This document shows, in pieces, positions 12,842 to 20,204 of a stretch of 55,336 bases of DNA (its first letter is position 1; the number at the start of each line of letters is the position of its first letter). The stretch lies in contig NZ_LT596207.1 of the NCBI RefSeq assembly GCF_900092335.1, positions 423,756-479,091 on the forward strand, read 5' to 3'. The stretch is from Corynebacterium phoceense. Lineage in GTDB: Bacteria > Actinomycetota > Actinomycetes > Mycobacteriales > Mycobacteriaceae. The notes beneath the pieces were generated by a model. The model had not been told where the DNA came from, did no database searches, and was given only the letters and a program-made list of their open reading frames with translations. Both the position numbers and the translations under genes were made by a program.

Positions 12842-12874
12842 GGCATTTAAGCCACAAGTAAGTCCGAAAGGAAA

Positions 12875-13261
12875 TTACTTGAGCTCGACGGAAGCGCCAG
12901 CCTCTTCGAGCTTAGCCTTAGCGGCCTCAGCGTCGTCCTTGGAAGCACCCTCGAGGATAGCCTTCGGAGCGGACTCAACGAGCTCCTTGGCTTCCTTCAG
13001 GCCCAGACCGGAGACGATCTCGCGGACGACCTTGATGACGCCGATCTTCTTTGCGCCAGCGTCGGTCAGAACGACGTCGAACTCGGTCTTCTCTTCCTCA
13101 GCAGCGCCGCCGGCAGCCGGGGCACCTGCAGCTGCAACTGCAACCGGAGCAGCAGCCTCAACGTCGAAGACCTCTTCGAATTCCTTGACGAACTCGGAGA
13201 GCTCGATGAGGGTCATTTCCTTGAAAGCTTCAATGAGCTCGTCCTTGGTGAGCTTAGCCAT
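12875..13261 (-). CDS. rplL: 50S ribosomal protein L7/L12
   Basis: A 128-residue ribosomal stalk protein that recruits translational GTPases. It shows the N-terminal dimerisation helix ([20 protein letters not shown]), an Ala/Gly-rich hinge near residues 45-65, and the conserved C-terminal domain ([20 protein letters not shown], then [20 protein letters not shown]). The start at 13261 has AAAGGA 8 nt upstream; in-frame Mets further up are not supported. It is the second gene of rplJ-rplL. Confidence 0.98.
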
Positions 13262-13340
13262 GATGGCCATCCTTTCTGTGCGGAACGCCGTGCGTTCCAA
13301 AGTGTGTGTGTTTTAATTGTGTGCGCGAGTATTCGCGACT

Positions 13341-13862
13341 TTAAGCCTCGGCAGCCTTCTTGTCCTGCAGGGCCGCAGCGGTGCGGACCATCTTGGTTGC
13401 AGGAGCGTTGAAGACTGCAGCAGCCTTTGCCATAGAACCCTTCATGGCACCAGCCAGCTTTGCGAGAGTGGTCTCGCGGTTGTCCAGCTCGGCGATGGCG
13501 TTGACCTGGTCGGCAGACAGTGCGTTGCCGTCCATGTAGCCACCCTTGACGACGAATGCCTTGTTATCATCAGCGAACTTCTTGATAACCTTAGCGGCAT
13601 CCACTGCCTCGCCCTTAATGAACGCAATAGCGGTCGGGCCGGTCAGCAGCTCGTCAAGACCTTCGATGCCAGCTTCAGCGGCAGCGATCTTGAAGAGGGT
13701 GTTCTTGGCGACGGAGTACTCAACGTCAAAGCCGAGATTGTTACGCAGCTCCTGGAGCTGAGCAACGGTCAGACCACGGTACTCGGTGAGCACGACGGAG
13801 TTTGCACCCTCGAGCTTCTCCTTCAGAGTAGCCAGGTCAGCGGTATTCTTCGGGTTTGCCAT
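13341..13862 (-). CDS. rplJ: 50S ribosomal protein L10
   Basis: A 173-residue stalk base protein that carries the L7/L12 dimers. It begins MANPKNTADLATLKEKLEGA with the L10 signature LTEYRGLTVAQLQELRNNLG. The ATG at 13862 follows AAAGGAGG; the longer open frame to 13928 runs into the leader and is not used. The gene is preceded by an L10 leader with an attenuator-type hairpin, the usual autoregulation in which L10-L12 binds its own mRNA. Confidence 0.98.
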   Translation of the reverse strand: MANPKNTADLATLKEKLEGANSVVLTEYRGLTVAQLQELRNNLGFDVEYSVAKNTLFKIAAAEAGIEGLDELLTGPTAIAFIKGEAVDAAKVIKKFADDNKAFVVKGGYMDGNALSADQVNAIAELDNRETTLAKLAGAMKGSMAKAAAVFNAPATKMVRTAAALQDKKAAEA

Positions 13863-13899
13863 TTTGTTCTCTCGCCTCCTTTCGAAACATCTCTTAATA

Positions 13900-14050
13900 T
13901 TTTCCGCCGGAGCCTTTTGCACAAACAAAAAGCCCCGTGCAAGAGCACGAGGCGCACGGCTTTAAGGCCATGTATCGCAAGTGTCTCCTGCGTGGGCCGT
14001 CCCTTTAAGCGGGAACCTTCGGCCTATTTCTAGGCGACCAACGGTCTTCG
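13900..14050 (-). ncRNA. L10 ribosomal-protein leader (autoregulatory 5' UTR)
   Basis: On the minus strand upstream of rplJ are the conserved blocks AGACCGTTGGT, AAGGTTCCCGC and GGGACGGCCCACGCAGGAGA, in the order expected of the bacterial L10 leader. That leader mimics the L10/L12 binding site on 23S rRNA. An attenuator-like hairpin and T-run follow before the rplJ ribosome-binding site. The boundaries are approximate. Confidence 0.8.
13924..13960 (-). terminator. Attenuator-like hairpin in the L10 leader
   Basis: On the minus strand, CCTCGTGC-TCTT-GCACGGGG is followed by CTTTTTGTTTG, a hairpin plus T-run inside the leader about 65-100 nt before the rplJ start. It could terminate a fraction of transcripts when L10-L12 is in excess. 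Confidence 0.6.
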
Positions 14051-14142
14051 GTGAAACTTGAGCTCGACCAATCGGTCGTTCAAACTTCTGGGATTACACT
14101 ACACCCGCTGCTCAAAACAACAAAATCCCGTTCCGCTGAGCC

Positions 14143-14155
14143 TGCCGATGCCGCC
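14143..14155 (-). repeat. Non-coding copy of the GGCATCGGCARSC motif
   Basis: The core on the minus strand is GGCATCGGCA (plus strand TGCCGATGCC at 14143-14152), continuing GGC. It lies between the rplJ leader and the first small membrane-protein gene, where no supported gene is present, so protein coding does not explain it. Confidence 0.6.
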
Positions 14156-14236
14156 TTTACTCCACCGCCGCTCCCGCCCTGCGCTGGGCTCGTTGGAGAT
14201 CATTGTCCCTACACAACCTCATATCAAGAAGCCTCC

Positions 14237-14521
14237 ATGGCCCATACTTCGTGCCGACTCCTCGGCGTCAAAGTCACCTGCGCAGTTACCGTGAGCACCG
14301 CCGGCATCGTGCTCGGCGTCGTGGGCGGACTGGCCGCTTACGCCCTCATCGCGACGGGTATTCGCTACCGCGATGAGAGTGCAACCACTGGCCAATATGC
14401 CATCGCAGCGACGTACACGAGCTCCGCTGCCAGCCAGGCTTTCACGCTGAGCGCGCTGCCAATCGTGAACCCGCAGGGATTCTGGTACTACATCCACAAC
14501 ATCCTCCCGCTGCGCACATGA
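14237..14521 (+). CDS. Small membrane protein of unknown function
   Basis: A 94-residue protein beginning MAHTSCRLLGVKVTCAV. It has a long hydrophobic segment (about residues 12-42, TVSTAGIVLGVVGGLAAYAL) and a short polar region (RYRDESATTGQ). A second Ala/Ser-rich, weakly hydrophobic segment follows, ending NPQGFWYYIHNILPLRT. The frame is open upstream to 14051, but the ATG at 14237 is preferred because AAGAAG lies 6 nt before it and the upstream part is low-complexity Pro/Ser. It is the first of five consecutive small membrane or exported proteins. I do not recognise the family. Confidence 0.55.
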   Translation: MAHTSCRLLGVKVTCAVTVSTAGIVLGVVGGLAAYALIATGIRYRDESATTGQYAIAATYTSSAASQAFTLSALPIVNPQGFWYYIHNILPLRT

Positions 14522-14698
14522 CACAGCGCAAGTTGCGCGCAACTGCGTTGCACGACAGGCGGACGGTTGACACCGCCAAGATCACATCTCATGTGGTTCC
14601 GCCCGTTCCTCCCGCGGCCTAATCTAGATGAAGAGGTTGTCTGTACAGCATCGTTTATGTAATTCCGGCGTCTCTTTCATTCTTTAACTCTTTCTTCT
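14522..14698 (+). promoter_or_regulatory. Gap before the DUF2892 gene with weak promoter elements
   Basis: This 177-nt gap is AT-richer at its right end. TTGTCT (14637-14642) and TAATTC (14660-14665), 17 nt apart, form a weak promoter candidate upstream of the four following small genes. No terminator is evident. Confidence 0.25.
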
Positions 14699-14926
14699 GT
14701 GAAAGGTCTCGTCATACAACGCAACGAGTCCATCACTGATCGCTCCGTACGCGGCGCAGGCGCCGTTGTCGCTTTCTTGCTTGCGTTCTTCGCAGTCAAG
14801 CCCAAGAGCCCAGCAGGAATCGCACTCATCGTCATGGGCACCATCCTCGGTGCCACCGCAGCACTGGGCTTCTGCCCGCTTTACAGGCTCTTTGGCCTCA
14901 ACACCTGCCCCATCAATCAGCGTTAA
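14699..14926 (+). CDS. DUF2892 (YgaP-like) small inner-membrane protein
   Basis: A 75-residue protein matching the DUF2892 pattern. It has the entry motif QRNESITDRSVRG, two hydrophobic helices (AVVAFLLAFFAV and GIALIVMGTILGATAAL) and the hallmark GFCPLYRLFGLNTCP with two Cys. Such domains occur alone or fused to rhodanese domains. Role unknown. The GTG at 14699 gives the best N-terminus, but no strong ribosome-binding site precedes it. It is the second of the small-protein series and the only one with a known domain. Confidence 0.8.
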   Translation: MKGLVIQRNESITDRSVRGAGAVVAFLLAFFAVKPKSPAGIALIVMGTILGATAALGFCPLYRLFGLNTCPINQR

Positions 14927-14954
14927 ACCCACCCCTCACGAAAGGCTCATTCTC

Positions 14955-15200
14955 ATGCGACGCATCTCTCAAGCGCTTACCGCTACCATGCTGGCCACTG
15001 CACTCACGGTCTCATCGCCAGCGCTCGCGCATGCACAGACTGCCCCTGTTATCCAGTCCGTAGAGCTCAAGGCCGACAACGACGCAAGCTCAGCCGCCAA
15101 AGACACGGCCATCGGTATCGTTGCCGCCATTCTTTTCATCGGCGCGCTCTTTTTGGGCGCCCACGCGAATAACGCCATGCTCGCTCGCAACGCTCAGTAA
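14955..15200 (+). CDS. Small exported or membrane-anchored protein
   Basis: An 81-residue protein with an N-terminal signal (MRRISQALTATMLATALTV, probable cleavage after AHA). A short polar segment (VELKADNDASSAAKD) and a C-terminal hydrophobic helix (IGIVAAILFIGALFLGA) follow, ending HANNAMLARNAQ. The product would be a tiny protein outside the membrane held by one C-terminal helix. AAAGG lies about 9 nt before the ATG at 14955. It is 28 nt after the DUF2892 gene, likely in the same transcript. No family is known to me. Confidence 0.65.
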   Translation: MRRISQALTATMLATALTVSSPALAHAQTAPVIQSVELKADNDASSAAKDTAIGIVAAILFIGALFLGAHANNAMLARNAQ

Positions 15201-15275
15201 ATCTTCACGCTACAGCCGGTTCACCCAGCTGGCTCGACCACGTCTCTCCCATCTCGCATCTTTCAAGGACCTTCC

Positions 15276-15743
15276 ATGTCACTTCATCTCCCCCGCCGTA
15301 TCACACTGCTTGTAGCTGCAATGACCGCCACGGCAAGCCTCACCACCACCGTCGTAGCTCCGGCTCCGACAGCCATCGCAGTAGAGGCGCACGCATACGC
15401 CACCGTAGAGGCAGCCCAGACCGCCGCGCACCAGGAGGCAGGCACGTCGCCCCAGACTGACGGCAAGAAGTCGGATGAGAGCTCAGACGGAAGTTCCGAG
15501 GCCGGTGCCGTCATCGGTTATGTTCTCCTCGGCCTCGTTGTCATGGACGTCTCGCTTAGCGGTCTGGCCTACAACACGTGCTACGCCGGCAACCCCGATG
15601 CCCAGTGCGACATCAGGTCGCTCACCAGCAGCTTCATCGGCTCGAGTCTGCTTGGCGGCTATAGCCTCGTCTCGGGTCTCGCCACGATGGCCAATGACTC
15701 GCTCGCTGCCAGCTCCTCGCGTCTCGGACTCGGCGCGCGCTAA
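15276..15743 (+). CDS. Small exported protein with CxxGNxDAxC motif (paralogue A)
   Basis: A 155-residue protein with a signal peptide (MSLHLPRRITLLVAAMTATA, then an Ala-rich cleavage region). A polar low-complexity linker follows, rich in Asp/Glu/Ser (KKSDESSDGSSEAG), then a hydrophobic helix (VIGYVLLGLVVMDVSLSGLA). Its C-terminal part contains YNTCYAGNPDAQC followed by SLTSSFIGSSLLGG. The CYAGNPDAQC block resembles CMQGNQDACG in the next gene, so the two are diverged paralogues. AAGGA precedes the ATG at 15276. Function unknown. Confidence 0.7.
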   Translation: MSLHLPRRITLLVAAMTATASLTTTVVAPAPTAIAVEAHAYATVEAAQTAAHQEAGTSPQTDGKKSDESSDGSSEAGAVIGYVLLGLVVMDVSLSGLAYNTCYAGNPDAQCDIRSLTSSFIGSSLLGGYSLVSGLATMANDSLAASSSRLGLGAR

Positions 15744-15755
15744 AAAGGACCCCGC

Positions 15756-16094
15756 ATGCACTACTCCTCACGCTTCGTCACGGTCGCGACCGCCACAGCA
15801 CTCGCATTAACCGTCCCCACGGCCACGGCCGACGACTCCTCCGAGAATTCCTCGAACGCCACAGGCACGCTGGGCATCCTCTCCGCAGGAGGCACTCTCA
15901 TCGGAGTCATGCTGTCCTCAGTAAGCCGCCAATCCGCGTGTATGCAAGGCAACCAGGACGCCTGCGGTTCTTCCCTTTTAGAGCTAAGCTCGGCAGGCAT
16001 GCCTCTCTCATCCGCAGCGATCAAGCCTGCTGTTGAGGGGATTGTCGCAGCCCGGGCACAACTGGAGAAACTCTCGTCCTCATTCCCACGCTGA
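15756..16094 (+). CDS. Small exported protein with CxxGNxDAxC-like motif (paralogue B)
   Basis: A 112-residue protein with a signal peptide (MHYSSRFVTVATATALALTV, cleavage probably after ATA). It continues with DDSSENSSNATG and a hydrophobic segment (LGILSAGGTLIGVMLSSV). The block SACMQGNQDACGSSLLELSS parallels the Cys-containing block of the previous gene. The C-terminus is helical and amphipathic (AAIKPAVEGIVAARAQLEKL). AAAAGGA lies just before the ATG, which is 12 nt after the previous stop, so the two are an operon. It is convergent with the DUF1990 gene. Function unknown. Confidence 0.7.
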   Translation: MHYSSRFVTVATATALALTVPTATADDSSENSSNATGTLGILSAGGTLIGVMLSSVSRQSACMQGNQDACGSSLLELSSAGMPLSSAAIKPAVEGIVAARAQLEKLSSSFPR

Positions 16095-16121
16095 CGCGTG
16101 GCTCGAACCGCTGTCCCTTCG

Positions 16122-16643
16122 TTATTCCTGCTTCGCCATGCCCGCGAGATAGCGCCGGGTGATGAGGCTCTGAGCGGCTGCCGCGAGGTGCGGGGCCAGC
16201 CGCGCGAACCAGCGCTCGGGGCGGGAAAACGCGACACACCTGCCTACGACACTGCCATCGGCGCGATGCTCGATGAGGAACGCCTCTTCGCCACACTCGA
16301 CGTGCCCGGGCAGCGTCCCGTAGACCAACGCGGTGCGCTGCGGCGTGCGCTCGACATGCAGAATGCGGCACGGCGAGAGCGTCGGACCCACGCGTAGCCA
16401 CACCACGTCTGGGTCCACAGGATCGCGGCGCACGCGCACCCCGGCATATCGGTGCGCACGAAACTCAAGCAGGTTCGCACTCGCACGCTGGAAGCACTCC
16501 TCCCCTGTTCCCAGGACGCGTGACTCATCGACCGCACGCCACGACGCGTTAAGTCCGAGTTCCTCGCGCATCCCGCCGTCGGCGAGAGCTAGGCTCGATA
16601 GACGCAGATCAGGCGGATACGACATCGAAGATGTTGCTGCCAT
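16122..16643 (-). CDS. DUF1990 family protein
   Basis: A 173-residue protein of the DUF1990 family, widespread in actinobacteria and of unknown role. Diagnostic blocks: ECFQRASANLLEFRAHRYAGV near residues 45-65, LSPCRILHVERTPQRTALVY, then GTLPGHVECGEEAFLIEH, and the C-terminal AFSRPERWFARLAPHLAAAA with ITRRYLAGM. The ATG at 16643 (MAATSSMSYPP) is preferred to the open extension to 16727. It stands alone. Confidence 0.85.
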   Translation of the reverse strand: MAATSSMSYPPDLRLSSLALADGGMREELGLNASWRAVDESRVLGTGEECFQRASANLLEFRAHRYAGVRVRRDPVDPDVVWLRVGPTLSPCRILHVERTPQRTALVYGTLPGHVECGEEAFLIEHRADGSVVGRCVAFSRPERWFARLAPHLAAAAQSLITRRYLAGMAKQE

Positions 16644-16723
16644 ACCCACGAGTATCCCATACGAGATTAGACACTTTCGAGCTACGGCGTGCCGAACACG
16701 GTAGGAAAGTACAAACGCATCCA

Positions 16724-17008
16724 TCAACTCAACGCACCTACGAAACCGCCTCCGCGCTGCGCGTTAGCTGGCGGATTCCCTGTCCGATGGCGCGCGCACC
16801 GCATTGTCCGGAAAATGTCGACCACGTTGCCATATTCATCAAACGGTGGACGCGTTAGCTCTGCTGTCTCAAGAACACCATTGCGCGCAATGTAACCCAC
16901 CAGCAGATCCACGAATTGAATCTGCACAGAATTCAGCGTGGTATCTGCCGGCACGGCAGAACATTCAGCGCGCACGGCCGGTTCATCCATCCCCACGATT
17001 CCGCGCAA
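16724..17008 (-). pseudogene. C-terminal fragment of a type I restriction enzyme R subunit (HsdR-like)
   Basis: The minus-strand frame reads RGIVGMDEPAVRAE..., then LNSVQIQFVDLLVGYIARNG and VLETAELTRPPFDEYGNVVDIF. In HsdR-type helicase/nuclease subunits the C-terminus has the same order: a (V)GLDR-A block, then LnxxQxxFvdlii, then GvxxxxxLyexPF. Nothing of the nuclease or helicase domains is left upstream, where frames are broken, and no HsdM or HsdS gene is nearby. It is therefore a decayed restriction locus. The rest of 17009-17389 has no supported gene; its base composition is more AT-rich than the flanks. Confidence 0.5.
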
Positions 17009-17389
17009 AAGCCTCCTATCGACTCATCGACATGAAAATCACGCAGTTGCTCAGCGCCGTCAACGTGGCAATCCACCACATCAATGGACTTGACCCCGTA
17101 GCCACGTGCCCCACCACAGATTCGAGCACGAAGCGCGCTTGGAACACGGAACCGCGCGGATTAGTGAGTGCATTTCACTCAACCAATCGGCAGTCGTTAA
17201 GCAGGTTCGGCCACACCACGCCGATAAAGCCGAAGTTGCTGGATCGGGGTGTTCCACCACTCATCGTCGCCACGGCGCTCCAGTTCCTCTCTACTAGTTC
17301 CGCATCTCATACTGCTTGGTTACAACCATTATGGTGTCTTTTCCGGCGAAAAGAACGCCATTTCACCATCCAACTCGATTTACAACCGT

Positions 17390-17460
17390 ACTGAATTCGT
17401 ACTGAATTTTCAGCACAATATTTCAGTCACATTTCAATCATATTTCAGTACGATTTCCGA
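17390..17460 (+). repeat. Helically phased repeat array at the promoter of the AlbA_2 gene
   Basis: Two ACTGAAT units at 17390 and 17401 (11 nt apart) are followed by units in the opposite sense: ATTTCAGT at 17420, ATTTCAAT at 17431, ATTTCAGT at 17442 and ATTTCC at 17453, each exactly 11 nt apart. A further TTTTCAGC lies at 17407. The array runs up to the -10 element of the gene that follows. One copy per helical turn, in two opposed blocks, looks like a cooperative operator; autoregulation by the downstream product is inference. Confidence 0.65.
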
Positions 17461-17471
17461 TCAAACTTGGG

Positions 17472-17477
17472 TACACT
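17472..17477 (+). promoter_or_regulatory. -10 element, leaderless promoter
   Basis: TACACT, preceded by GG, lies exactly 7 nt before the ATG at 17485. Transcription would start at or next to the ATG, giving a leaderless mRNA, and no ribosome-binding site is present. The phased repeats cover the -35 region. Confidence 0.5.
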
Positions 17478-17484
17478 GCTCCCC

Positions 17485-19257
17485 ATGAGCATCATCGACG
17501 TCCCAGAACTCATTGCGCTCCTCCGCGATACGCAAAATGATACGTGGAATGTCGAGGCCAAAGAAGCCTCTCACCAGATTCCCGAATCAATTGACGAGAC
17601 TCTCTGCGCCTTCGCCAATATGCCAGACGGCGGCACACTCATCCTCGGGGTCGCTGAAAATGGTGGCGCTTTTGATGTCACTGGAGTCTGGGATCCGAAA
17701 GCCGCACAGTCCGCAATCGCTTCAAAGGCCCGCGAGCGAATCACGCCGCCCTTGCAACTCGGTGCAGTTGAGGTGACCATCGTGGAGGGGAAACCCGTCG
17801 TTGCTGCGATTGTTCCTCCCCAGCCTTCAGAGCATCGTCCCTTCCGCGTCGGTAAGTTTGGCAAGGCCTACATTCGTTCCGGCGACGGCGACTACGACTT
17901 ATCGCCTCAAGAAGAGCTTTTCTTGGTCGGTGAGCGGCAGCAACCACACGCGGATCGCACACCAGTCGAGGGGGCCACGGTTCAACACGACTTGGTAGAC
18001 GACCTGCTCCAGCAATACCTCAGCGCGAAAAAGCGTGACTCTCGCCGGCTGCGTGACCTCGACGAACGCACGCTCCACATCCGCACCAACGTTATTGACC
18101 CGGACACTGGTTTCGTCACGACTGCAGCCCTTTACGCCTTCGGCGAGCAGCCGCAGCAGTTCCTACCCAACCTCGTGGTCAAAGCTCGCGCCATCAATCC
18201 CCAGGTCGACACTGCTCAACGGCTCACCGATCGTCGCGAATTCACGGGTCCCGTACCGGACCTCCTTGACTCGGCAAGGGAATGGGTCTCTGCGCAGCTA
18301 CGCGTCGGAGTAACCTTCCGCGATGGCAACGGGATCGATGTACCTGAGCTCCCTCCGATCGCCATTCGCGAGATCATCGCCAATGCCCTGGTTCACCGCG
18401 ATCTTTCCGCTGCAAGTTACGGCATGTATACGCAGCTCATCAAGCAGCCCACCAAGCTCATTGTGGAAAGCCCCGGCGGATTGTGGGGCATCACCAAAAA
18501 TCAGCTCGGCTACACCTCCCCTCGCGCCCGTAACGCGATCCTCTATTCCATGTGCGCCGCCCTCACAACCGACAATGGATACCGCGTTATCGAGGCTCAA
18601 GCTACTGGCATTCCTGCAGCTCGTGCCGCCCTTGCAGAGGCTTTCCTCCCCGCCCCGCACTTCGACGATCAGATTACTAAGTTCACCGCTATTCTCACCT
18701 CTTCGTCACTTCTCAGCGATACCGACCTTCGTTGGCTTGGGCAGCTCCCCGGCTCAGACACCCTATCCGTCGCTCAAAAGCACGCTCTCATCGCTATGCG
18801 TCACGGCGAGGAGATCACCAATAGCAGCTATCGAAGCGCCTTCCCCATGGACTCCGTTAATGCCCGCGCCGAGCTTCAGCAATTGGTGAAATACGGGCTT
18901 GCCGATGCCGCCGGCTCTGGCCGTGGCACCACCTACAGGGCCCCATCCGACAATGACGAAGCCCTAATCGAAACCGTGGCTTCCGGTGCCGCTCAGGCTG
19001 CCGCAGCTTCCGCCGACGACCATGCCAAGCGCAGCACATACCTGTCTGCAGCCGAGAAAGACAAGCGCATCTTGACAGCGTTACGTGCCGCGCAGCACGG
19101 GCTCACGCGCAAAGAGCTGGAGCGCGAAACAGGCCTAACTCGAGGGCAAATCAATCCGAGAATTGCAAAATTGAGCGAGAAAGAAATGATACGTAAGACG
19201 CCATCCAAATCCGACTCACGCTCCCAGATTTACTCCATTGGTCCAAGAGAATTTTAG
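17485..19257 (+). CDS. AlbA_2 / ATP-binding / winged-helix protein (Schlafen-type N-terminus)
   Basis: A 590-residue protein. Residues ~10-135 form an AlbA_2 domain (WNVEAKEASHQIPESIDETL, CAFANMPDGGTLILGVAENG, then KAYIRSGDGDYDLSPQEE). The middle has a GHKL-type ATPase block (IREIIANALVHRDLSAASYG and LIVESPGGLWG). The C-terminus holds helix-turn-helix-like segments (LTRKELERETGLTRGQINPR). Such proteins are usually called putative DNA-binding regulators and often sit near restriction-modification or defence genes; here an HsdR remnant lies just upstream. An upstream in-frame TTG exists at 17467, but the leaderless promoter supports 17485. The gene is less GC-rich than its neighbours, in keeping with transfer. 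Its actual role is unknown. Confidence 0.85.
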   Translation: MSIIDVPELIALLRDTQNDTWNVEAKEASHQIPESIDETLCAFANMPDGGTLILGVAENGGAFDVTGVWDPKAAQSAIASKARERITPPLQLGAVEVTIVEGKPVVAAIVPPQPSEHRPFRVGKFGKAYIRSGDGDYDLSPQEELFLVGERQQPHADRTPVEGATVQHDLVDDLLQQYLSAKKRDSRRLRDLDERTLHIRTNVIDPDTGFVTTAALYAFGEQPQQFLPNLVVKARAINPQVDTAQRLTDRREFTGPVPDLLDSAREWVSAQLRVGVTFRDGNGIDVPELPPIAIREIIANALVHRDLSAASYGMYTQLIKQPTKLIVESPGGLWGITKNQLGYTSPRARNAILYSMCAALTTDNGYRVIEAQATGIPAARAALAEAFLPAPHFDDQITKFTAILTSSSLLSDTDLRWLGQLPGSDTLSVAQKHALIAMRHGEEITNSSYRSAFPMDSVNARAELQQLVKYGLADAAGSGRGTTYRAPSDNDEALIETVASGAAQAAAASADDHAKRSTYLSAAEKDKRILTALRAAQHGLTRKELERETGLTRGQINPRIAKLSEKEMIRKTPSKSDSRSQIYSIGPREF

Positions 19258-19419: not shown

Positions 19420-20124
19420 TTAAGCGGTGTAATCCTTGGTGACGGACGCGTCGACCGGGATGCCCGGGCCGGAGGTCGTGGTCATGGTGACCTTCTTGAC
19501 GTAGATGCCCTTGGAGGAGGACGGCTTCAGACGCAGGATCTCGTCGTAGAGAGCGCCGTAGTTCTCAGCCAGCTTCTCGGCGTCGAAGGATGCCTTGCCG
19601 ATGATGGCATGCAGGTTGGAAGCCTTCTCCACACGGAAGGAGATCTTGCCGCCCTTGACGTCGGCGACAGCCTTGGTGACGTCAGCGGTAACGGTGCCGG
19701 TCTTCGGGTTCGGCATGAGACCACGCGGGCCGAGGACGCGGGCCACGCGGCCCACCTTGGCCATCTGGTCCGGGGTAGCGATGGCGACATCGAAGTCGAT
19801 GTGGCCCTCGTTGATGGCCTCGATCAGCTCGGCGGTACCGACGATGTCGGCGCCAGCAGCCTTGGCCTCATCAGCCTTCGGGCCCTCGGCAAAGACGGCC
19901 ACGCGGACGTCCTTACCGGTGCCGTTCGGCAGGGAGACGGTGCCGCGAACGAGCTGGTCAGCCTTGCGCGGGTCAACGCCGAGGCGGAAGACGACGTCAA
20001 CGGTGGCGTCGTAGTTCTTGGAGGAGGTCTCCTTGGCCAGCCTCGCGGCCTCGAGCGGGGAGTACAGGCGGGACTTGTCGACCAGTTCGGCCGCAGCCTT
20101 GTAAGCCTTAGAGTTGGTGCTCAT
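19420..20124 (-). CDS. rplA: 50S ribosomal protein L1
   Basis: A 234-residue L1-stalk protein; L1 also represses its own operon in many bacteria. Signature blocks are present: [40 protein letters not shown] and [20 protein letters not shown]. The ATG at 20124 follows AAAAGGAATTGCTTAA. It is the second gene after rplK, 80 nt downstream. In this genome rplJ-rplL is about 5.5 kb away rather than next to it. Confidence 0.98.
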
Positions 20125-20204
20125 TTAAGCAATTCCTTTTCGTGGATTGTTGTGGTCTGTGCGGGCCGAAAGCTGGCCCTGCCACATGAAGTTGTTGGAG
20201 GTTT

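Follow-up and report, generated by a model that had tools for sequence, protein, structure and literature searches.

One described family close to this locus is PF11127 (YgaP-like_TM, DUF2892), to which gene B belongs by score as a stand-alone 75-codon protein; its relatives adjoin rplQ in three inspected loci, whereas B adjoins rplJ. Genes D and E can be compared with the VirB2/TrbC-type pilins, with which they share a signal peptide and a possible helix hairpin. D and E have no family match, and no secretion-system genes were recognised in the interval. D can also be set beside an unnamed group of small exported proteins from four genomes of the genus (G183, G025, G076 and G188, here the G183-type group), which are 84-108 aa long with a tail like FSPYNPNGxxANAxR. 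With these D shares a signal-peptide-like start, a polar linker and the pattern SS-x-x-G-x-x-IG before the hydrophobic segment, and it differs from them by an added Cys loop and a second weak segment.

Genes A to E point away from rplJ in a window of 55,336 nucleotides of Corynebacterium phoceense DNA (the whole stretch analysed, positions 423756-479091 of contig 1, in a genome of 2.79 Mb and 14 contigs). A sequence-only reading had taken them for five consecutive small membrane or exported proteins between rplJ and rplA with one envelope-associated function. Their position between these genes is right, but a DUF1990 gene, a restriction-subunit remnant and an SLFN_AlbA_2 gene share the interval (the names rplJ, rplA, rpoA, rplQ, truA and HtaA were assigned by eye throughout). 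Our preferred reading, to which we give a probability of about 0.52, is that B-E make up an accessory stretch, some 1.6 kb long, within an rplJ-rplA interval that has been rearranged, with D and E a diverged tandem pair, and that they are not one five-part machine.

Table 1. Features of the A-E locus and its surroundings (positions in the window)
Feature	Position	Strand	Description
Gene A, 94 codons	14237-14521	+	one strong hydrophobic segment; counterpart in G238 has an interrupted frame
Palindrome	14531-14544		perfect, 14 bp, AGTTGCGCGCAACT, in the A-B gap
Gene B, 75 codons	14699-14926	+	YgaP-like_TM/DUF2892; GTG start, RBS not clear
Gene C, 81 codons	14955-15200	+	signal-peptide-like start, polar linker, single hydrophobic segment near the C end
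Gene D, 155 codons	15276-15743	+	signal-peptide-like start, long polar linker, SSEAGAVIG, hydrophobic segment, C..GN.DA..C loop, weaker segment
Gene E, 112 codons	15756-16094	+	feature order as in D; shorter relative of D
Restriction remnant	16724-17008	-	what is left of the C-terminal part (EcoEI_R_C, E 1.9e-6) of a type I restriction-type subunit
SLFN gene	17467-19257	+	SLFN_AlbA_2/HATPase_c_4/MarR_2 gene; PADLOC matches too, best 4.2e-13

All five frames, on one strand and of the lengths first read, were confirmed. For each of A to E the own frame has the best codon log-odds of the six (0.39, 0.35, 0.29, 0.23 and 0.04, respectively), the 25 alternative frames being negative throughout, and a score on synonymous codons only again favours the own frame of each, at values of -0.04 to 0.11. 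These scores all lie below the training mean (0.61, sd 0.24; synonymous 0.30, sd 0.17), obtained from 33 window ORFs picked by eye and scored in 100-codon chunks. Clear ribosome-binding sites had been seen for most of the genes; by eye this applies to C, D and E, the site being weak for A and absent for B. Short gaps separate B from C, C from D and D from E (28, 75 and 12 nt), but A and B lie 177 nt apart, and because of this gap A is detached from B-E. The three proteins described as having a signal peptide plus a hydrophobic helix are C, D and E, which fit that description as judged by eye without a predictor, while A and B have hydrophobic segments and no signal-peptide-like part. Over 14521-16136 the G+C content is 60.0%, compared with 63.4% (sd 2.6) in 1600-base windows, which leaves the B-E stretch without a clear mark of foreign origin. 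Rfam at gathering thresholds gave nothing at the locus and three tRNAs elsewhere in the window. The palindrome of the A-B gap is the sole match to its sequence in the window at two mismatches or fewer (0.38 expected) and, by eye, is not retained in G238.

It is the comparison with G238 that brings out the rearranged nature of the interval. Window segments 12872-14117, 13927-14512, 16136-17079, 17096-19186 and 19442-20185 are found there in order on one contig at 82-91%, and the flanks are retained, namely the rplJ side, A, the DUF1990 gene, the SLFN gene and rplA. The place of B-E is taken in G238 by genes of the PALP and decarboxylase families and by one more long frame. As the flanks are collinear but other genes replace B-E, we place B-E in an exchangeable stretch; the locus is known from these two genomes only, and either state may be the ancestral one. 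G238 also has a longer type I restriction-type gene, the C-terminal part of which (EcoEI_R_C, E 6.6e-16) has no counterpart here beyond the remnant listed in Table 1. A transposase-type gene lies between rplJ and A in G238 (L061), in an inserted stretch of roughly 5.4 kb, on both sides of which some 190 bases from upstream of rplJ are present.

Gene B is an ordinary DUF2892 membrane protein, as had been recognised from the outset; it covers positions 2-64 of the 66 of PF11127 (E 4.5e-16, 59.2 bits against a curated cut-off of 25.3). With a threshold of E<=1e-6 the family has one match in each of 41 among the 242 genomes of the genus, our own included, and none in G238. Three neighbourhoods (L115, L116 and L119) were inspected from the twenty longer stretches around B relatives, and in two of them the relative sits directly between rplQ and truA. 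In these Corynebacterium-like genomes the DUF2892 gene is by rplQ, and the single match of our own genome is by rplJ.

Gene A has one clear relative among the 242 genomes, in G238 (77% over residues 19-92, E 1.4e-31). There the frame that opens at the matching start codon is closed by a stop 11 codons on, next to 41 extra bases, and the last 74 codons remain open. Those codons carry 36 changes, of which 11 are at codon position 1, 8 at position 2 and 17 at position 3, with a dN/dS of 0.33 in the A frame against 0.59-1.62 in the other five, a pattern that suggests a modest coding signal. Because the frame is interrupted in G238, the standing of A as an intact conserved gene is doubtful. Another 41 of the 242 genomes were counted for A at E<=0.05, the best at 7.7e-4; these were set aside, the one locus inspected (L043) having the frame of a membrane enzyme that looks like a MenA-type prenyltransferase. 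A-E look like a neighbourhood of narrowly distributed genes and not like one set. The idea of a five-gene unit with one function lacks support, since G238 has A but not B-E, and the B family is found in 40 other genomes of the 242. A would be a backbone frame, and both A and B would be present independently of the remaining genes. The locus as a whole gives no pointer to a new system; what it offers is lineage-restricted membrane microproteins in a part of the chromosome that is exchangeable and adjoins genes for ribosomal proteins.

Within the stretch, D and E, separated by 12 nt, are probably paralogues. Using shuffles that preserve hydrophobic and polar positions, their mature parts align at a score of 66 against a shuffle mean of 33.1 (sd 6.3), with 1 of 5000 shuffles as high; for a second cut of the sequences none of 1000 reached the observed score. 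BLASTP of D against E gave only E 0.085, and the two DNAs show no likeness. Common to both are SS..SS.A ahead of the hydrophobic segment, followed by C..GN.DA and GSSLL. Among the ten A-E pairs B-D also exceeded most shuffles (16 of 1000 as high), which we take as chance among ten tests. E has no convincing relative among the 242 genomes (34 counted at E<=0.05 including our own, the best other at E 0.003), and a D-E profile run over 180 genomes of the order gave a single match outside our own genome, which spans 44 positions at E 0.003. The predicted fold of D, at a mean pLDDT of 40.6, is uninformative.

Gene C resembles the pair in layout only. Its likeness to D and to E does not exceed that of shuffles (258 and 111 of 1000, respectively, score as high), and its 10.9 bits against the G183-type profile lie inside the shuffle range (4 of 300 C shuffles higher); pairwise against the G183 protein, 8 of 2000 shuffles were as high. 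Matches at E<=0.01 occur in 16 of 242 genomes including our own, the best other (2.9e-5) covering residues 1-53, mostly signal peptide, and we count no convincing relative of C among them. Four of the 15 non-own loci were inspected. Those near HtaA-like genes (L011, L014 and L020) were rejected, 158 of 2000 shuffles scoring as well with C, and L017 was set aside as lying opposite a long frame. Conservation of the five frames, an issue raised with the first description, is uneven: the B family is found in 41 of 242 genomes, A has its one clear relative, an interrupted one, in G238, and C and E have no convincing relative.

These results also bear on whether C, D and E, perhaps with B, are one operon whose products assemble into a small complex in the membrane and serve one envelope function, which we hold to be unlikely. 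The gaps downstream of B on a single strand, the layout common to C, D and E and the D-E likeness all speak for it, but the set has no relative in the 242 genomes of the genus, C does not resemble its neighbours beyond shuffles, terminator-like sites on the + strand fall inside B and inside C, and no promoter-like site was found on the + strand. A shared envelope function of all five genes is not supported, and what survives of it is that D and E could have an envelope role in common and that C may be transcribed with them.

Under the preferred reading of B-E as an accessory stretch, C, D and E would be exported by their signal peptides, D and E probably via the general secretion route. One helix, or two, may then anchor D and E in the cytoplasmic membrane and leave the polar N-terminal part outside, the Cys-pair loop and second weak segment following the hydrophobic helix; C has the same layout. 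The likeliest role would be structural or modulatory at the cell envelope, for each protein alone or for the D-E pair.

It is improbable, in our judgement, that C, D and E are frames of narrow distribution that now serve little or no function, heading for loss beside a decayed restriction gene. Such an end would suit the nearby remnant, the interrupted A of G238, the codon scores below average and the lack of relatives for C and E. Against this, the frames are open, their ribosome-binding sites are good and the coding bias favours the correct frame, and D and E are alike as protein but not as DNA, which retention of the protein would predict.

The sequence-only reading had offered a secreted peptide system and an immunity set as two of its options. 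A bacteriocin-like system of secreted peptides together with immunity partners, for which the small sizes, signal-peptide-like starts and very narrow distribution speak, is very improbable, as A, C, D and E match no named family above a curated cut-off or at E<=0.01 in four libraries, no transporter, processing enzyme or immunity gene was recognised between rplJ and rplA, and the hydrophobic segments resemble anchors. For these four proteins Pfam, NCBIfam, PHROGs and PADLOC gave no more than sub-threshold matches, and none of the bacteriocin or VirB2-type pilin models of the first three was matched; the PADLOC phage-defence models gave no match for any of A-E at E up to 1. Further searches found no match in the plasmid collection for C, D or E, in the phage collection and the viral contigs for D or E, or in the genome contig collection for D or the D-E alignment, and among PDB sequences none for D and one for E at E 0.49. 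At the level of listings, with no claim on what is in print, a literature search on the A-E genes found nothing.

D alone of the three leads outwards. It matches 13 of 242 genomes at E 0.01 or better including our own, with G183 (6.3e-5) and G025 (2.7e-4) at the top, and scores 34.2 bits against a G183-type profile, compared with 11.3 for the best of 300 D shuffles; the profile was made of five sequences from G183, G025, G076 and G188, two of them nearly identical. Pairwise against the G183 protein, 0 of 2000 shuffles were as high for D and 40 of 2000 for E, and E scored 4.9 bits with the profile, not above its own shuffles. The helix region of D stands out from most shuffles in two other comparisons as well, with an unrelated protein of the window (1 of 2000 as high) and with an HtaA-like tail (8 of 2000), so part of the likeness of D is a common Ser/Gly juxtamembrane pattern. 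The conserved tail PYNxNGxxANA of the group is absent from C, D and E on inspection of the sequences, and D is for that reason called a relative and not a member. We place D as an outlier related to a microprotein group that is narrow and confined to the level of the genus. As far as tested this family has no Pfam or NCBIfam name; its reach, with the G183 protein as query, is 25 of 242 genomes at E<=0.01, four of them at 1e-10 or better (G183, G025, G076 and G188). The relatives of D are one small exported protein group open to definition and testing.

The neighbourhoods of these relatives are unlike one another, which argues against a fixed partner set: the relative in G025 adjoins JetA/JetB (Wadjet) genes and a glutamate symporter gene, that in G076 a HipA-like gene and that in G188 an amino-acid permease gene. 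The defence-like neighbours of some are a lead only. It would be a long shot to read D and E as corynebacterial membrane microproteins of a new kind, in which tandem proteins carrying a Cys/GN-DA loop are exported, serve competition or abortive responses at the membrane and have kin that tend to adjoin defence or stress genes; such genes are the restriction remnant and SLFN gene here, the Wadjet genes in G025 and the HipA-like gene in G076, while the relative in G188 does not fit this pattern. Exported proteins of 84-108 aa ending FSPYNPNGxxANA are present at L157, L158, L159, L160 and L062, and G183 carries further partial copies.
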